64,000 nt of DNA from an uncultured Aquimarina sp. (lineage in GTDB: Bacteria; Bacteroidota; Bacteroidia; Flavobacteriales; Flavobacteriaceae), in NCBI GenBank assembly GCA_947498785.1, contig CANMLS010000006.1, positions 124,001 to 188,000 of the forward strand, in the 5' to 3' direction. The position numbers and the translations under genes were made by a program. Below, piece after piece: positions 5,614-63,084 of the stretch. Each line of letters begins with the position of its first letter. Position 1 is the stretch's first letter. The notes under the pieces were generated by a model. That model made no database searches. It saw nothing but the letters and a program-made list of their open reading frames with translations, and had not been told where the DNA came from.

Positions 5614-8447
<2,834 letters not shown>

Positions 8448-32167: not shown

Positions 32168-33205
32168 ATGCACTTAATTTTTTCTGAGTATATTGATTTT
32201 TCTTCAAATAGAGTTATCGATTGGTTAATATATTACGATCAAAAATATCAAAAATACATAGGACAACCAAAAACTGGAGATCATTTTAGATTTGATAACA
32301 AGATCATCACAGCTTGTTTTGGAGGTACTGATGATGAAGAATCATTTATGATTAAAGATAACAACCAAGAAATCGATTTTGAATCAGTATGGTTTAGAAG
32401 ACCTGTTCATAATACCAATTCATTTTTGTTTGATATTGAACACAACTACAAAGGAAGCTATCCAAAAGGTTTATTAGTTGATACTATACATAAAAGAGAG
32501 AAGGTGTTATGGGATTTTCTTGGGTATAAACTGAAAGAAAAACATCATCAAGGTTCATTTGAAGTAGTAGAATTGAATAAACCTATTATTTTAAAAAAAG
32601 CCCAAAGTCTTGGACTAACTATACCCAAAACATTAATTACAAATTCAAGGCAAGATCTTGAAATTTTCTTTAAAAATTGTAATAATAAGATAATTACAAA
32701 ATCTCTTGGTTCTGTAATTCCTGGTTATGAACAAAAACCACAAGACATGAATTATCTTTCATTTTATCAATTAACAAAATTAATAGACAATCTAGAAAAT
32801 ACTCCCAAATTATTTGCTCCATCTTTATTTCAAGAGTACGTAGATAAAGAATATGAAATAAGAACAATTTTTCTTAAAGGAAAGCTATATTCGGCTTCTA
32901 TCTTTAGTCAACTTAACGAACATACTAAAGTGGATATGCGTAATAGATCCGCAAATCATCCTACTCGATATATTCCGTATCAATTAGATAAAAAAATCGA
33001 AATCAGTTTAATCAAATTGATGAAAAAACTAAATCTCGACTACGGAGCTATAGATATTGTAAAAGGTATAGATGGAAGGTATTATTTTTTAGAGATTAAT
33101 CCTGTTGGACAATATGGTGATGTATCTTTACAATGTAACTATTATCTCAACAAAATAATAGCAGAAGATTTAATTAAGAATTTTAATGATGATAGATCAA
33201 TCTAA
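32168..33205 (+). CDS. gwsG: Grasp-with-spasm ATP-grasp peptide maturase
   Basis: A 345-residue ATP-grasp ligase of the type that makes omega-ester or omega-amide crosslinks in graspetides (microviridin-like). The N-terminal preATP-grasp domain includes VWFRRP, seen in MvdD/MvdC-like enzymes. The ATP-binding region includes IITKSLGSVIPG and FQEYVDKEYEIRTIFLKGKL. The Mg-binding end is DYGAIDIV followed by YYFLEINPVGQYG. It follows the precursor gene and overlaps the next small gene by 20 bases. The expected substrate is the 49-residue peptide. Confidence 0.92.
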   Translation: MHLIFSEYIDFSSNRVIDWLIYYDQKYQKYIGQPKTGDHFRFDNKIITACFGGTDDEESFMIKDNNQEIDFESVWFRRPVHNTNSFLFDIEHNYKGSYPKGLLVDTIHKREKVLWDFLGYKLKEKHHQGSFEVVELNKPIILKKAQSLGLTIPKTLITNSRQDLEIFFKNCNNKIITKSLGSVIPGYEQKPQDMNYLSFYQLTKLIDNLENTPKLFAPSLFQEYVDKEYEIRTIFLKGKLYSASIFSQLNEHTKVDMRNRSANHPTRYIPYQLDKKIEISLIKLMKKLNLDYGAIDIVKGIDGRYYFLEINPVGQYGDVSLQCNYYLNKIIAEDLIKNFNDDRSI

Positions 33206-33392
33206 AAAATACAAGGACCTTATTGACATACCCGAAAGTGAATCTGTTCCTTTTGACATACATTATATTTGTATAACCGAAAAAAAAAGTAGTAATCAAG
33301 ATGTAAAATTTGCATACATGAAAAAATATAAATCCCTTGGAGTAATTTCAGATTTTTACAAAAAAAATTCTAATATTATTGACACAAATTAA
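33186..33392 (+). CDS. Small orphan protein of the graspetide cluster
   Basis: A 68-residue protein that I cannot assign to a family. It begins MMIDQSKKYKDLIDIPESES and continues with a short hydrophobic strand (FDIHYICITEKK) and a basic helical part. It overlaps the ATP-grasp gene by 20 bases and the SPASM gene by one base (TAATG), so it is translationally embedded in the operon and very probably made. It might be a leader-binding or adaptor protein, or a second peptide substrate. It has one Cys and no double-glycine motif. Confidence 0.65.
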   Translation: MMIDQSKKYKDLIDIPESESVPFDIHYICITEKKSSNQDVKFAYMKKYKSLGVISDFYKKNSNIIDTN

Positions 33393-34396
33393 TGGATACA
33401 AATTTTCTACTATTCCCTTCCTGTATCAGTGTAGGGGGGTATTCTAATAGTCTTATAATGGATCTTGATAACGGAACTTTTATTGAAATTCCTAATCTAC
33501 TCCAAGAAATACTTTCTATTGACCTTAAACAAAACACTATAGAGGAAATTAAATCTATATTTGATAACAAATATAATGAAGGTATTGACAGTTATTTTCA
33601 GTTTTTGGTCGATAACGAATATGGTTTTTTTACACAAAAAACTACTTCTTTTAAAAATCCACAGAAGGTTTTTTATTCTCCATATAAAGTTATTTCATCA
33701 GTTTTGTCATTTGACAGGACAAGTATTTACAGTCTACCCGAAGTACTAAAACAATTGGAAAACCTCTCTTGTCAACTAATTCAAATACGATTATTTGACT
33801 TTATTGATCTACAATTATTAGAAAAGTATCTTCGTACAATAAAAGAAAGTAGCATAAGGAAAGTAGAAGTACTAATTCCTATGAATTATAAGTTGACCGA
33901 AAAGGAGCTTGTTAAGTTCGCCAATAATTTCCCTAGAACAAGTCTAATTATTTATGGCTGTGACACAAAAAAGAGGTTAAAAACCTCAGAAAATCCCAAA
34001 AAAGAAATTATATACACAACTAACAAACTGACTAAAGATTCAAAAGAAATTTATTCTATCAAATCATTTATTATAAATCATCAAATGTATTATGAAGCTC
34101 TACAATATAATACGGGATTACACAGGAAGGTTTGCATAGATACTAATGGAAATGTCAAAAACTATTTATCACACCATAAATCCTATGGCAATATATCAAA
34201 AGATAGTATTGTAGATATCATCTCAAAAAAGAGTTTTCAGACAAAATATTACATTCATAATGACATGATTGAGAAATGCAAAGATTGTCAATTTAGATAT
34301 ATGTGTTTAAGTAATTCTGATATAAAATTTGAGAAAAATAAGTATTACAAAATTGACACTTGTAACTTTGATCCTTATAACAATAGTTGGAATTAA
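33392..34396 (+). CDS. gwsS: Grasp-with-spasm SPASM-domain protein
   Basis: A 334-residue protein matching the SPASM partner of ATP-grasp maturases. The C-terminal SPASM-like region has CIDTNGN, then CKDCQFRYMC (CxxCxxxxxC), and a final TCNFDPY, suitable for auxiliary Fe-S clusters. The N-terminal two thirds look like a radical-SAM barrel (YSPYKVISSVLSFD, then LSCQLIQIRLFDF). The CxxxCxxC motif that binds the catalytic cluster is absent, so it is probably a non-radical-SAM leader-binding or scaffolding protein. It overlaps the upstream small gene by one base, and its stop lies 12 bases before the exporter gene. Confidence 0.85.
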   Translation: MDTNFLLFPSCISVGGYSNSLIMDLDNGTFIEIPNLLQEILSIDLKQNTIEEIKSIFDNKYNEGIDSYFQFLVDNEYGFFTQKTTSFKNPQKVFYSPYKVISSVLSFDRTSIYSLPEVLKQLENLSCQLIQIRLFDFIDLQLLEKYLRTIKESSIRKVEVLIPMNYKLTEKELVKFANNFPRTSLIIYGCDTKKRLKTSENPKKEIIYTTNKLTKDSKEIYSIKSFIINHQMYYEALQYNTGLHRKVCIDTNGNVKNYLSHHKSYGNISKDSIVDIISKKSFQTKYYIHNDMIEKCKDCQFRYMCLSNSDIKFEKNKYYKIDTCNFDPYNNSWN

Positions 34397-34407
34397 GTTG
34401 TTGTTTT

Positions 34408-36600
34408 ATGAGAAAAAAGTTCAAACATTATAAACAACCCAACATCATGGATTGTGGGGCAACTTGTTTAAGAATGATTGCAAAGTTTTATAACGTTCAT
34501 ATTTCTCTTGACCGATTAAATAGAATTGTTGAAACTACTAGAGAAGGAATCAACTTTGAGATGCTTAGCAACGCAGCCGACAAAATTGGCTTTAGAACAA
34601 TTGGATTAAAAATAGATACTTTAACACTATTCAACGATGCTCCTCTCCCTTGTGTTGTTACTTGGAATCATAATCATTTTGTGGTAGTTTATAAAATTAA
34701 AAAAGATAAAGTATATATTGCTGATCCCGCTTTAGACCTCCTAACTTATAGCAAAAAACAATTTATTCAAAACTGGATTGGGTATTCTGCAGATGAGACC
34801 ACAAAAGACGGATTAGTAATGCTATTCGAACCAACTCCAAAGTTATTGGAAAACAATTATAATGAGCCCGAAAAACAAGATTTTAAACATATTTTCAAAT
34901 ATCTATTCATACATAAAAAATTTCTGGTACAATTAGCCATTGGTGTTATAGCAGGAAGCATTCTTAATCTTATATTTCCTTTTTTAACTCAAAGCATTGT
35001 AGATATTGGAATTAAGAATATGGATTTAAATTATATTTATCTTATATTATTAGCTCAAATATTTATTTTCCTAGGAAAAATAAGCGTCGATATTCTACGA
35101 GGGTGGATTTTACTTCATCTGAGTACAAGAATTAACATTTCTCTTGTTTCAGATTTTTTCGTCAAACTTATGAATCTTCCAATTTCATATTTCGACACAA
35201 AGGTAACAGGTGATATTCTTGAACGTGTAGGAGACCATAAAAGAATCGAAAATCTACTTACAAATTCTCCTTTATCAATCTTTTTAGCTTTTATCAATAT
35301 TATAATTTTCGGAATTGTTCTTGCTCTCTATAGCTTTAAAATATTCACAATATATACAATAGGAAGCGTCCTTTATTTTATTTGGATATTTATCTTTATT
35401 AAAAAAAGAAGAATAATTGACATGCATCAATTTCGATTAATCGGTGAAGAAAAGACAAAAATTATTGAGCTTATAAATGGAATGCAAGAAATTAAACTTT
35501 TAAATGCAGAAAAAGAAAAAAGATGGAGTTGGGAATTCATAAAAGCTAGATCATTTAGATTAGAAATCAAAAAACTTTCTCTAGAACAACTTTTAAACAT
35601 TGGATCATTAATTATTAATGAACTTAAAAATATTATTATAATTTACATAGCATCAAAATTGGCTATTCAAGGTGATATTACTTTAGGAATGATGTTATCC
35701 ATAATGTATATTATAGGTCAATTAAATGGCCCATTAAACGAAATTCTTAAAATAAGCTATTCTGTTCAGGATGCAAAAATAAGCATTGAACGACTAAATG
35801 AAATTCACAAATTAAATAGCGAATATGATGAGAATAAATCAACGTGTGAGTTATTTGATATAAGTCAAGATATCCATATTAAGAACCTATCTTTTAATTA
35901 TCCTGGAAGAACAACAAATGTCCTTAAAAACATTAATTTAATAATACCTTCAAACAAAACGACCGCAATAGTAGGAGCTAGTGGAAGTGGTAAAACTACA
36001 CTTATAAAATTGTTGTTGAAATTTTATATTCCAAAAAATGGACTAATTAGCTTAGACAGTATAAATTTGAAGAATATTTCGCAAAAATCATGGAGAAATC
36101 AACTTAGCATTGTTATGCAAGATGGTTACATTTTTAATGATACCATTGCTAGAAATATCGCCCTAGGAAAAGGTGACATTGATAAAAAAAAATTATCCCA
36201 AGCAGTTGATGTAGCTAATATTAAAGAGTTCATAGAAAGATTACCACAAACTTATAACACTCCCATTGGAGATGATGGTGTTGGTATCAGTGGTGGAGAA
36301 AAACAAAGAATACTTATTGCAAGAGCAGTTTATAAAAATCCTTCACTAATGTTTTTTGATGAAGCTACAAGCGCTTTAGATGCAAACAACGAAAAAAAAA
36401 TCACGGAAAATCTTAACTTCTTTTTTAAGAATAAAACTGTTGTCATCATTGCACATAGGTTAAGCACCGTAAAAAATGCTGATCAAATTGTTGTTTTAGA
36501 AAAAGGAGAAGTTGTAGAAACAGGAAATCATAATAATTTAAGTAAAGCAAGGGGGAAATATTATCACTTAGTAAAAAATCAACTCGAATTAGGGGTATAA
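34408..36600 (+). CDS. C39 peptidase-containing ABC exporter
   Basis: A 730-residue bacteriocin-type exporter that cleaves leaders and secretes the peptide. The N-terminal C39 peptidase has catalytic Cys16 (NIMDCGATC), His90 (WNHNHFVVVYK) and Asp106 (IADPA). The transmembrane domain spans about residues 155-440. The nucleotide-binding domain has Walker A GASGSGKTT (Lys529), signature ISGGEKQR, Walker B SLMFFDEATSALD and switch His in IIAHRLSTV. ATG 34408 is chosen; the upstream TTG lies inside the previous gene. No HlyD-type adaptor is encoded nearby. It ends the graspetide operon before a terminator. Confidence 0.95.
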   Translation: MRKKFKHYKQPNIMDCGATCLRMIAKFYNVHISLDRLNRIVETTREGINFEMLSNAADKIGFRTIGLKIDTLTLFNDAPLPCVVTWNHNHFVVVYKIKKDKVYIADPALDLLTYSKKQFIQNWIGYSADETTKDGLVMLFEPTPKLLENNYNEPEKQDFKHIFKYLFIHKKFLVQLAIGVIAGSILNLIFPFLTQSIVDIGIKNMDLNYIYLILLAQIFIFLGKISVDILRGWILLHLSTRINISLVSDFFVKLMNLPISYFDTKVTGDILERVGDHKRIENLLTNSPLSIFLAFINIIIFGIVLALYSFKIFTIYTIGSVLYFIWIFIFIKKRRIIDMHQFRLIGEEKTKIIELINGMQEIKLLNAEKEKRWSWEFIKARSFRLEIKKLSLEQLLNIGSLIINELKNIIIIYIASKLAIQGDITLGMMLSIMYIIGQLNGPLNEILKISYSVQDAKISIERLNEIHKLNSEYDENKSTCELFDISQDIHIKNLSFNYPGRTTNVLKNINLIIPSNKTTAIVGASGSGKTTLIKLLLKFYIPKNGLISLDSINLKNISQKSWRNQLSIVMQDGYIFNDTIARNIALGKGDIDKKKLSQAVDVANIKEFIERLPQTYNTPIGDDGVGISGGEKQRILIARAVYKNPSLMFFDEATSALDANNEKKITENLNFFFKNKTVVIIAHRLSTVKNADQIVVLEKGEVVETGNHNNLSKARGKYYHLVKNQLELGV

Positions 36601-61223: not shown

Positions 61224-62813
61224 ATGAAAAATAACATTGAAAAAATTGTAGAATCTGTTTTGGTTCAAAATCGAATAGGTAACTATGAGAAAAAGGATTT
61301 AGAGCTTCAGTTACAAATACACCCCAACTATCCAAGTTTTCAATCTATTACAGACACTCTAGACTATTTTAACATTGATAATATAGCTGTAGAAGTTCCT
61401 ATAGACGCTTTGGATCAATTACCAAAAAGCTTTGTTACTTTAATCAAAACTACAGAATCATCAGAGGAAATCGTATCCGTTATTAAAAAAAATGAACGCA
61501 TTGAAATTAATCACAGTAGCTTAAAGAAAAAGAACGTTACCCTCGAAGAATTTAAAGAAATTTGGATCCCTAAGGTCATTGCTGTTGAATACAACTCTAA
61601 ACAAAGTCTTTTATCCAATCGATCATTTCTTCATAATTTTTTAGCGATAACATTAATTACTGGTTTAGTTTTATTAGGTATAAGCAGGATCTGGACAATT
61701 GATCAAATTCTTTTTCTACTTGTATCTTTAGTGGGCGTAACTTTTAGTTTTTTTGCGTTTCGCGAAAGTTTAGGCATTCAATCTCAAACCATTCATCAAT
61801 TTTGCACTTCTGTCGGGAATACAAATTGTGGAGATGTAATTAATAATAATAGCGGTAAGATATTCAAGAATTTTTCGCTTGCTGACGCTGGCATTGTGTT
61901 TTTTAGTACACTTACTTTGTACCAAATCTTTTATGGTTTTACCAATGTATTACTCATACCAACACTAGCAGGTATCCCATTTGTATTATACTCTATATAT
62001 TCTCAAGCTTTTATTATAAAAAAATGGTGTGCTATATGCCTTGCCATGGTGACTGTTTCTGTTGGACTAACCATAATAGCACTACGAAGTCTTCAGTTTG
62101 ATATTGATATTTCTCATATTTCAGGATTTTTAATTATTACTACCTTATTCACTTCGCTTTATTTATTTGCTAAGGAAAAAATGGTAGAAAACAAGACTTT
62201 TAAAGGTGAAAACTTAAAGCTAAATCATTTTAAAAGAGATGGTCAGATTTTTAATCATTTACTTAGTCTTTCAGAAAAAATTGAAGATAATTCAACTATC
62301 GAAAACGAAATCGTATTAGGTAATCCGAATGCTCCTTTCAAAATCATTAGTCTTACCAATCCTATGTGTGGATATTGTAAAGATGCTTTTGAGGCCTATA
62401 CTCGTACTTTGAAAGCTATGGGAGATCAGCTACAGATCATTATTCGTTTAAATGTAAAAATTGATGACCCAGAGAATAAAGCAACACAAATTGCTTTGAT
62501 TCTTTTTGATATTTATCAACATAAAGGAGCTGATGAATTTATAATAGCATACAATAATTGGTTTGCAGACAGGACGCACAGTAAATGGATAAAAAAATAT
62601 GGTCTTCCTACAAAGAACCCAGACTATATTTCTGTTTTAGAAAAACAAACCGAATGGGCCGAAAAAAGCAATCTTTACTATACACCTGCTTCATTAATAA
62701 AAAACACTATCTACCCAAAAAAGTATAGTTATTCAGAGTTTTTCCATTTTATGGGTATTATGATTGAAAATCATAACGATATTATTGAAAATCAAGAGCC
62801 TGTTGAAATGTAA
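61224..62813 (+). CDS. C39-like / VKOR / thioredoxin fusion protein
   Basis: A 529-residue membrane protein with three parts. Residues 1-130 resemble a C39 peptidase (SFQSITDTLDYFNIDNIAVE, then ALDQLPKSFVTLI, then TLEEFKEIW) but lack the catalytic Cys and His, so it should bind leaders rather than cleave. A VKOR domain with about six spans follows, with a loop pair Cys194/Cys202 (FCTSVGNTNC) and the active-site CAIC near residue 270 (KKWCAICLAM). The C-terminal thioredoxin/DsbA-like domain has CGYC (Cys382, Cys385). VKOR fused to thioredoxin makes disulfides. The gene is followed 32 bases later by a four-cysteine double-glycine peptide. Confidence 0.88.
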   Translation: MKNNIEKIVESVLVQNRIGNYEKKDLELQLQIHPNYPSFQSITDTLDYFNIDNIAVEVPIDALDQLPKSFVTLIKTTESSEEIVSVIKKNERIEINHSSLKKKNVTLEEFKEIWIPKVIAVEYNSKQSLLSNRSFLHNFLAITLITGLVLLGISRIWTIDQILFLLVSLVGVTFSFFAFRESLGIQSQTIHQFCTSVGNTNCGDVINNNSGKIFKNFSLADAGIVFFSTLTLYQIFYGFTNVLLIPTLAGIPFVLYSIYSQAFIIKKWCAICLAMVTVSVGLTIIALRSLQFDIDISHISGFLIITTLFTSLYLFAKEKMVENKTFKGENLKLNHFKRDGQIFNHLLSLSEKIEDNSTIENEIVLGNPNAPFKIISLTNPMCGYCKDAFEAYTRTLKAMGDQLQIIIRLNVKIDDPENKATQIALILFDIYQHKGADEFIIAYNNWFADRTHSKWIKKYGLPTKNPDYISVLEKQTEWAEKSNLYYTPASLIKNTIYPKKYSYSEFFHFMGIMIENHNDIIENQEPVEM

Positions 62814-62845
62814 ATAGAAGAATATTCACTTTAAAACCAAATATT

Positions 62846-63019
62846 ATGAAACCAATCTCAAAAATGACAAGCGCAACACTTATTTCTAAAGAGCAACAAA
62901 AACATCTAAATGGTGGAAAAACACCTCTTGTTTTTGTTAATAGAGGAGGTTGTTCACCTGATGTAAGCTGTTGTTATCACAATGGAACCACTTGGGTACA
63001 AGGTCCTCCTTGTTTCTAA
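62846..63019 (+). CDS. Double-glycine leader peptide with four cysteines
   Basis: A 57-residue peptide. The leader MKPISKMTSATLISKEQQKH ends in LNGG at residues 21-24, the classical C39 cleavage site. The core starts KTPLVFVNRGGCSPDVSCC and ends YHNGTTWVQGPPCF, 33 residues with Cys at 36, 42, 43 and 56, enough for two disulfides. It is 32 bases after the VKOR fusion and ends at a strong terminator, so the two form one unit. It may be a bacteriocin-like or signalling peptide. No exporter is next to it; the C39 exporter at 34408 is the only one in the window. Confidence 0.85.
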   Translation: MKPISKMTSATLISKEQQKHLNGGKTPLVFVNRGGCSPDVSCCYHNGTTWVQGPPCF

Positions 63020-63030
63020 ATTTTTCAATT

Positions 63031-63073
63031 AATTTAAAGCTGTCTCTTTTTATTTATGAGACAGCTTTAAATT
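63031..63073. terminator. Bidirectional terminator between the GG peptide and dppC
   Basis: A perfect 16-bp stem, AATTTAAAGCTGTCTC (63031-63046) with GAGACAGCTTTAAATT (63058-63073), loop of 11 bases. It serves the convergent genes ending at 63019 (+) and 63085 (-). Confidence 0.9.
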
Positions 63074-63084
63074 AAATAAATTAT

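Follow-up and report, generated by a model that had tools for sequence, protein, structure and literature searches.

What a peptidase-like domain without its catalytic residues does at the head of a redox enzyme, and what that enzyme acts on, is the question raised by a two-gene unit in the window, the 64,000-nucleotide stretch of an uncultured Aquimarina sp. genome that was analysed here. The fusion ORF (61224-62813, plus strand, 529 aa) joins a C39-like domain, six transmembrane helices (VKOR) and a DsbA-like thioredoxin, as judged from the ORF, Pfam, AlphaFold and Foldseek, and the peptide ORF (62846-63019, plus strand, 57 aa) begins after a gap of 32 nt. The latter encodes a double-glycine precursor peptide (21.0 bits with the leader HMM described below) whose leader (aa 1-24, nt 62846-62917) ends in LNGG at aa 21-24, followed by a core of 33 aa (nt 62918-63016) with four cysteines at positions 36, 42, 43 and 56. 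The fusion ORF and the four-cysteine LNGG peptide ORF are present as an earlier note on this DNA had described them. A hairpin with an 18-bp stem lies 3' of the peptide gene between convergent genes (63029-63075, -23.7 kcal/mol, z -7.7) and is likely the terminator that closes the unit; a terminator scanner with a loop limit of 8 gave no call at this hairpin, whose loop is 11. The neighbours of the unit, both on the opposite strand, are a DNA/RNA endonuclease gene upstream and a permease gene (named by eye) downstream.

The redox part of the fusion is complete. The VKOR domain (aa 163-286, 61710-62081, plus strand) matched its Pfam family with an E value of 3e-15 and 57 bits against a cut-off of 27.5, and alignment located its loop cysteines Cys194 and Cys202 and the motif C269-A-I-C272. 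The Thioredoxin_4/DsbA-like domain (aa 360-506, 62301-62741, plus strand; Pfam E 2.8e-6), which was also found in 44 of 53 homologues and has a DsbA-like fold according to Foldseek, carries C382-G-Y-C385 and T487-P488, presumably the cis-Pro loop of the thioredoxin family. The pair of a VKOR CAIC and a thioredoxin CGYC motif named in the earlier note was therefore recovered. To investigate the distribution of the fusion, contigs were scanned with 14 homologues, giving 370 stretches, of which 322 were confirmed and the best 80 of these 322 were retained for the homologue set. Pooling 53 and 81 full-length proteins (134) and removing 12 at ≥90% identity left 122 non-redundant fusions. All six redox columns (Cys194, Cys202, C269, C272, C382 and C385) were cysteine in 122/122 homologues, and P488 was kept in 120. 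Fusion homologues occurred in Flagellimonas, Aquimarina, Tenacibaculum, Winogradskyella, Dokdonia, Labilibaculum and others, all of them apparently Bacteroidota, and 40 of 299 genomes of the source's family, its own included, contained the fusion protein. In one homologue (L110) the C39-like part is out of frame with the VKOR-thioredoxin part, which reflects either a sequencing error or a real break. VKOR-DsbA/thioredoxin fusions occur in cyanobacteria and actinobacteria and were also encountered among the VKOR loci compared below, and they resemble the window protein in combining a four-cysteine VKOR with a thioredoxin-fold partner; what the window fusion has beyond them is an extra N-terminal helix, the C39-like domain and inverted charges.

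The N-terminal domain (aa 1-121, 61224-61586, plus strand) matched Pfam Peptidase_C39 at aa 20-124 with 19.1 bits, below the cut-off of 22, and the window protein itself was not among the 35 of 53 homologues that matched this family at E≤0.001. An AlphaFold (AF2) model built with 53 homologues had a mean pLDDT of 88.4 for the whole protein, and the N-domain alone reached 88.3 with a pTM of 0.81. The top Foldseek match of this domain in the PDB was the ComA peptidase domain (5xe8, E 1e-6, TM-score by query 0.75), and the next matches included PCAT1, the HlyB C39-like domain (3zua) and LahT with its leader (6mpz). Profile comparison (hhalign) with the C39 domains of 11 PCATs gave a probability of 98.2% and an E value of 3.9e-14. 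Because 35/53 homologues match Peptidase_C39 and the AlphaFold and Foldseek results agree, the C39 assignment is sound at the level of models and profiles despite the sub-threshold Pfam score; the C39 fold on which the earlier note had built was borne out by the model, the structural matches and the profile comparison alike. However, a DCGxxC-type motif was found in the first 60 residues of none of the 122 homologues, and only 12 had any cysteine within the first 22 residues. In the profile alignment with C39, Glu82 of the window protein occupies the position of the catalytic His and His97 that of the Asp; column 82 was His in 9/122 homologues and column 97 was Asp in 11/122. Conserved instead of the triad were H33 (115/122), P34 (117/122), P37 (114/122) and S38 (117/122). 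An active C39 protease was rejected on the absent Cys motif and the two substitutions, and the loss of the catalytic Cys and His that had been noted for the window protein extends to most of its homologues. The HlyB domain (3zua) and the PCAT/LahT peptidase domains (6mpz) have the same fold as the N-domain (Foldseek TM-score by query 0.67-0.80), but they are parts of ABC exporters, whereas the N-domain is part of a redox enzyme, where it is proposed to be a leader-docking module. That a degenerate C39 domain may be retained for recruiting substrate is an accepted idea according to the available part of PMC6363468.

If the domain docks leaders, double-glycine peptides should be found near the fusion generally. 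For the leader HMM, 136 leaders lying ≤1 kb downstream of fusions were picked by leader pattern without a Cys criterion. At ≥8 bits the HMM matched 416 of 10,416 small ORFs versus one among the same ORFs reversed, and 412 of the 416 matches were on the fusion's strand. A GG-leader peptide lay ≤500 nt downstream of the fusion in 95/122 loci and ≤5 kb downstream in 104/122; counting any side or strand within 5 kb, the number was 109/122. The leader HMM recognised no GG peptide within 5 kb of the fusion in the other 13 of the 122 loci, three of which (L064, L065 and L071) contain peptides that have ≥4 Cys behind a leader of another kind, and one of the loci without a GG peptide (L198) spans only 274 nt downstream. 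The cores, taken ≤3 kb downstream of fusions, had a median length of 38 and contained ≥3 Cys in 227 of 232 cases. Four (92 cores) and six (84) cysteines were the commonest counts, followed by seven (18), eight (17), five (12), two (3), three (3), and twelve, one and zero (1 each). The count was even in 197 cores, odd in 34 and zero in one (p 4e-29 versus equal odds, a value that treats related cores as independent). Cysteine made up 13.4% of core residues versus 0.26% of leader residues. Proximity of the fusion to double-glycine peptides, the second point on which the earlier reading hung, is therefore a feature of the family, and the cores are Cys-rich and mostly even in count.

In an alignment of seven peptides, the leader was the main common part. 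Across the leaders, position -4 was I/V/L in 99%, position -12 was L in 94% and position -7 was mostly Gln (82%). The hydrophobic groove of LahT takes leader residues -4, -7 and -12, as described in the part of PMC6363468 available, so that the fusion-linked leaders fit LahT at two of these three hydrophobic positions (-4 and -12) and differ at -7, where they carry Gln. Several loci showed other recurrent neighbours. Four fusion homologues for which no GG peptide was found within 5 kb (L069, L074, L075 and L081) have a conserved 296-aa protein downstream, at 15-120 nt in L081 and L075 and at 2.4 kb in L069 and L074, and the fusion may possibly have a different use there. In L042, L043, L051, L055, L065 and L079, a conserved protein that looks TPR-/CHAT-like by eye (478-933 aa in the ORFs found) ends ~60-230 nt upstream of the fusion, and regulators that resemble LytTR and LuxR proteins by eye were seen repeatedly near other fusion loci.

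The association was compared with C39 domains outside this context. Thirty-six stretches around C39 matches without the fusion, in which 27 PCATs were recognised, yielded 26 GG-like peptides, and a single one of these (L207, 4 Cys) had ≥3 core Cys. The difference from fusion-near cores was pronounced (Fisher p 1e-28); this control is rough, several of the 26 GG-like ORFs looking spurious, and the contrast is nonetheless large. At the genome level, a peptide profile matched 31/40 genomes with the fusion versus 4/259 without it, and 24/33 versus 4/259 once the seven profile-source genomes were removed (p 8e-24, indicative only since the genomes are related). Nine genomes had the fusion without a peptide-profile match, and four had peptides without a detected fusion. 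Chance adjacency was rejected on the strand bias, the reversed-ORF control, the Cys-poor control peptides and the genome co-occurrence. The cysteine content of the cores leaves the kind of bond to be considered. The fusion might make or isomerise another Cys-based bond, or the disulfides might be needed for export or stability alone, activity being independent of them; synthetic bacteroidetocins prepared without a disulfide-forming step were still active, and the dispensability of disulfides for activity was raised as a possibility for these peptides in the available part of PMC6671954. Against this, no other modifying enzyme was seen among 12 neighbour families (one member each, named mostly by eye), and the even Cys counts fit disulfides, which makes such an account very unlikely and disulfide formation on the core the preferred one.

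The number of peptides that one fusion would serve was evaluated in the source genome, which contains a single VKOR match, this being also the single match to the fusion. The peptide profile gave 15 matches at E≤10, and 14 places were examined (13 plus the window); the leader HMM scored ≥3 bits at nine of these 14 and lower at the other five. The nine peptides with the leader type of the window peptide were distributed over eight contigs including that of the window, each having four or six core Cys, and one of the nine leaders ends in GS. At least 17 and at least 16 peptide-profile matches were counted in two further genomes (G288 and G179), with no more than 21 candidates scored per genome. 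The fusion thus probably serves many unlinked peptides. Many peptides for a single fusion fit an enzyme that recognises the leader whatever core follows it; since it is mainly the leaders that the peptides share, unrelated cores dispersed across the genome can all be handled by one enzyme.

The side of the membrane on which the fusion works bears directly on this proposal. The model contains six membrane helices (128-153, 159-182, 219-237, 241-265, 270-288 and 296-316 onward), whereas VKOR-thioredoxin fusions usually have five. The additional one, TMa (aa 128-153, 61605-61682, plus strand), precedes the VKOR helices, and no membrane helix was present before it in the AlphaFold model. With six helices, the N-domain, both VKOR Cys pairs and the thioredoxin therefore share one side. 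The density of K+R in the loops was 0.177 on this active-site side versus 0.032 on the other, and it was higher on the active-site side in 120/122 homologues. The comparison set comprised 26 canonical VKORs belonging to the same phylum, drawn from 30 loci of a longer list with L099, L110, L118 and L095 left out (three fusion-type by eye, one without loop Cys); in 16 of the 26 a further CxxC follows, as it does in VKOR-thioredoxin fusions. The charge pattern was inverted in 5/5 comparable loops, with K+R densities in fusions versus canonical VKORs of 0.037 versus 0.228 before helix b, 0.124 versus 0.043 in the Cys loop, 0.026 versus 0.214 in the next loop, 0.254 versus 0.027 before the CxxC and 0.05 versus 0.19 after helix e; a further, final segment was too short in canonical VKORs to be compared. 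The sign of the bias was consistent in 52/53 fusions and 25/26 canonical VKORs. Since K/R-rich loops face the cytosol under the positive-inside rule, the C39-like domain, the VKOR cysteines and the thioredoxin are all predicted to be cytosolic, a topology that departs from the canonical one with active sites outside the cytosol.

Bacterial VKOR-DsbA pairs usually act outside the cytosol, and the domains of the fusion are of the DsbA/VKOR type; the VKOR and thioredoxin might accordingly be periplasmic and oxidise the core after export, with the C39-like domain periplasmic too or in another role. This arrangement appears unlikely given the six helices that place the N-domain and the thioredoxin together, the missing membrane helix ahead of TMa and the loop charges opposite to those of the canonical set. 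Furthermore, PCATs cut the leader on the cytosolic side, so that on the outer side a leader-binding domain would find nothing to bind, and such a domain would make sense only on the cytosolic side. The suggestion that oxidation precedes export, which the earlier note had drawn from the domain content, gains independent support from the predicted topology. As a precedent for a cytosolic-side VKOR, the Aeropyrum pernix enzyme is reportedly active in two compartments (Hibender et al. 2017). It is archaeal and reportedly a general oxidant and, unlike the role proposed for the fusion, is not tied to a leader-guided peptide pathway.

An export partner was searched for among the PCATs. A PCAT with its Cys motif was present in 72/122 fusion loci, 71 of these PCATs being encoded downstream of the fusion in the same orientation, and in 65 of the 106 loci with ≥6.5 kb downstream; in the available stretches, none was found in 50/122 loci (41/106 of those with ≥6.5 kb downstream). 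An HlyD-like family, named by its likeness to a protein of locus L199 that matches HlyD_3, recurred in 34/54 entries of the first locus set (53 stretches, one holding two fusions; one entry partial). A phylogenetic tree of the PCATs placed the 72 fusion-linked ones in one clade of 80 leaves (support 0.93), the other eight leaves coming from control stretches. The ABC signature STGQ was present in 71/72 linked PCATs and in the eight control members of the clade; it replaces SGGQ/SGGE in the linked PCATs and is a possible marker of this exporter clade. The linkage in 72/122 loci, and the catalytic Cys through which PCATs act, could also mean that the fusion serves the exporter, its C39-like domain docking or regulating the PCAT and its redox part acting on the PCAT catalytic Cys or on envelope proteins. 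Yet the eight same-clade PCATs lie in stretches without the fusion, and of those stretches four yielded one GG-like peptide each, two of them doubtful, and the other four none, so that none with >2 core Cys turned up; moreover, the window fusion adjoins a peptide and no PCAT. We regard service to the exporter as highly improbable, and the peptide as the preferred substrate.

No exporter adjoins the window unit, whose flanks are the endonuclease and permease genes. The source genome contains three PCATs, in the window and on contigs C2 and C11. The C2 PCAT (L199, 7200-9404, minus strand) is beside an HlyD-like gene (5854-7146, minus strand) and groups within the fusion-linked clade, its sister being a linked PCAT (support 1.0); the C11 PCAT, with LSGGQ, was used to root the tree. 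The C39 ABC transporter of the window (34387-36600) was rejected as the exporter, as it belongs to a grasp-with-spasm type locus, has ISGGE and lies just outside the linked clade. Because the C2 PCAT is in the linked clade and the window PCAT just outside it, the exporter of the window unit probably acts in trans, with the C2 PCAT as the best candidate. The grasp-with-spasm type locus occupies 32168-36600 (plus strand), ~25 kb from the fusion unit; its ATP-grasp maturase scored 226.2 bits with TIGR04192, against a cut-off of 230, and its SPASM partner was above the cut-off of TIGR04193. Another locus of the source genome (L200, 6133-6452 and 7245-10721, both on the minus strand) has a PCAT with an HlyD-like gene (by eye), next to which lie two GG peptides that lack Cys and have another type of leader.

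Taken as a whole, the fusion is probably a disulfide synthase of the membrane that is coupled to quinone and works specifically on double-glycine peptides, carrying out leader-guided oxidation before export. In this scheme, whose chemistry is deduced from the protein families, the dead C39-like domain would hold the GG leader in the cytosol while the DsbA-like domain draws electrons from the core cysteines to form disulfides. The VKOR would then re-oxidise the DsbA-like domain and pass the electrons to a membrane quinone, and a PCAT of the one clade, with an HlyD-like adaptor, would cut the leader and export the disulfide-bonded core. It counts against this explanation that the cytosol is reducing, so that the disulfides would need protection or quick export. 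To our knowledge, bacterial disulfides are normally formed outside the cytosol and without a leader.

The closest known parallel is the bacteroidetocins (proposed class IIf), whose loci, as described in the available part of Coyne et al. 2019 (PMC6671954), encode a four-cysteine GG peptide together with three other proteins, namely one with 5 TM helices, a thiol oxidoreductase and a C39-type ABC transporter. The oxidoreductase is thought to make the disulfides, and its deletion attenuates activity (PMC6671954, same part). These loci share with the fusion unit the Bacteroidota host, the GG leader, the four cysteines and a locus-encoded thiol oxidoreductase. However, the leader is 15 aa in bacteroidetocins, as far as the source extends, versus 24 aa in the window peptide, and the bacteroidetocin locus includes the 5-TM gene and an exporter, neither of which adjoins the window unit. 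Transposon insertions there span ~3 kb with four genes including the ABC transporter, judging from the accessible portion of PMC6671954, and because four genes fit into this length the oxidoreductase should be a small, separate protein, in contrast to the three-domain fusion of the window. The words C39, VKOR and thioredoxin are absent from the text of PMC6671954, and VKOR and thioredoxin have zero occurrences in the available parts of PMC10352776, PMC8546649 and PMC12648078. A C39-VKOR-thioredoxin fusion was not found in the literature among the matches listed, subscription journals being mostly outside this scope. On the parts of the sources at hand, the bacteroidetocins set a general precedent for an oxidoreductase dedicated to peptides of this kind, which does not extend to the fusion architecture. 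From the diverse cores and the resemblance to bacteroidetocins, it is a fair guess that the fusion-linked peptides are antibacterial.

If confirmed, the fusion would be a disulfide synthase that is directed to its substrates and has its active sites in the cytosol, and a dead protease domain would get a clear job. It would also offer a way to detect many cystine-rich peptides that may escape annotation, and it might be used to produce peptides with disulfides within bacterial cells. The wider proposal, which we favour by a little over even chances, is a pathway widespread in Bacteroidota in which one VKOR-thioredoxin of inverted topology, equipped with a dead C39 domain, would form disulfides at the cytosolic face on peptides chosen by their GG leaders, with unlinked and unrelated cores throughout the genome. 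If true, it would define a peptide class by leader-guided disulfide formation before export.
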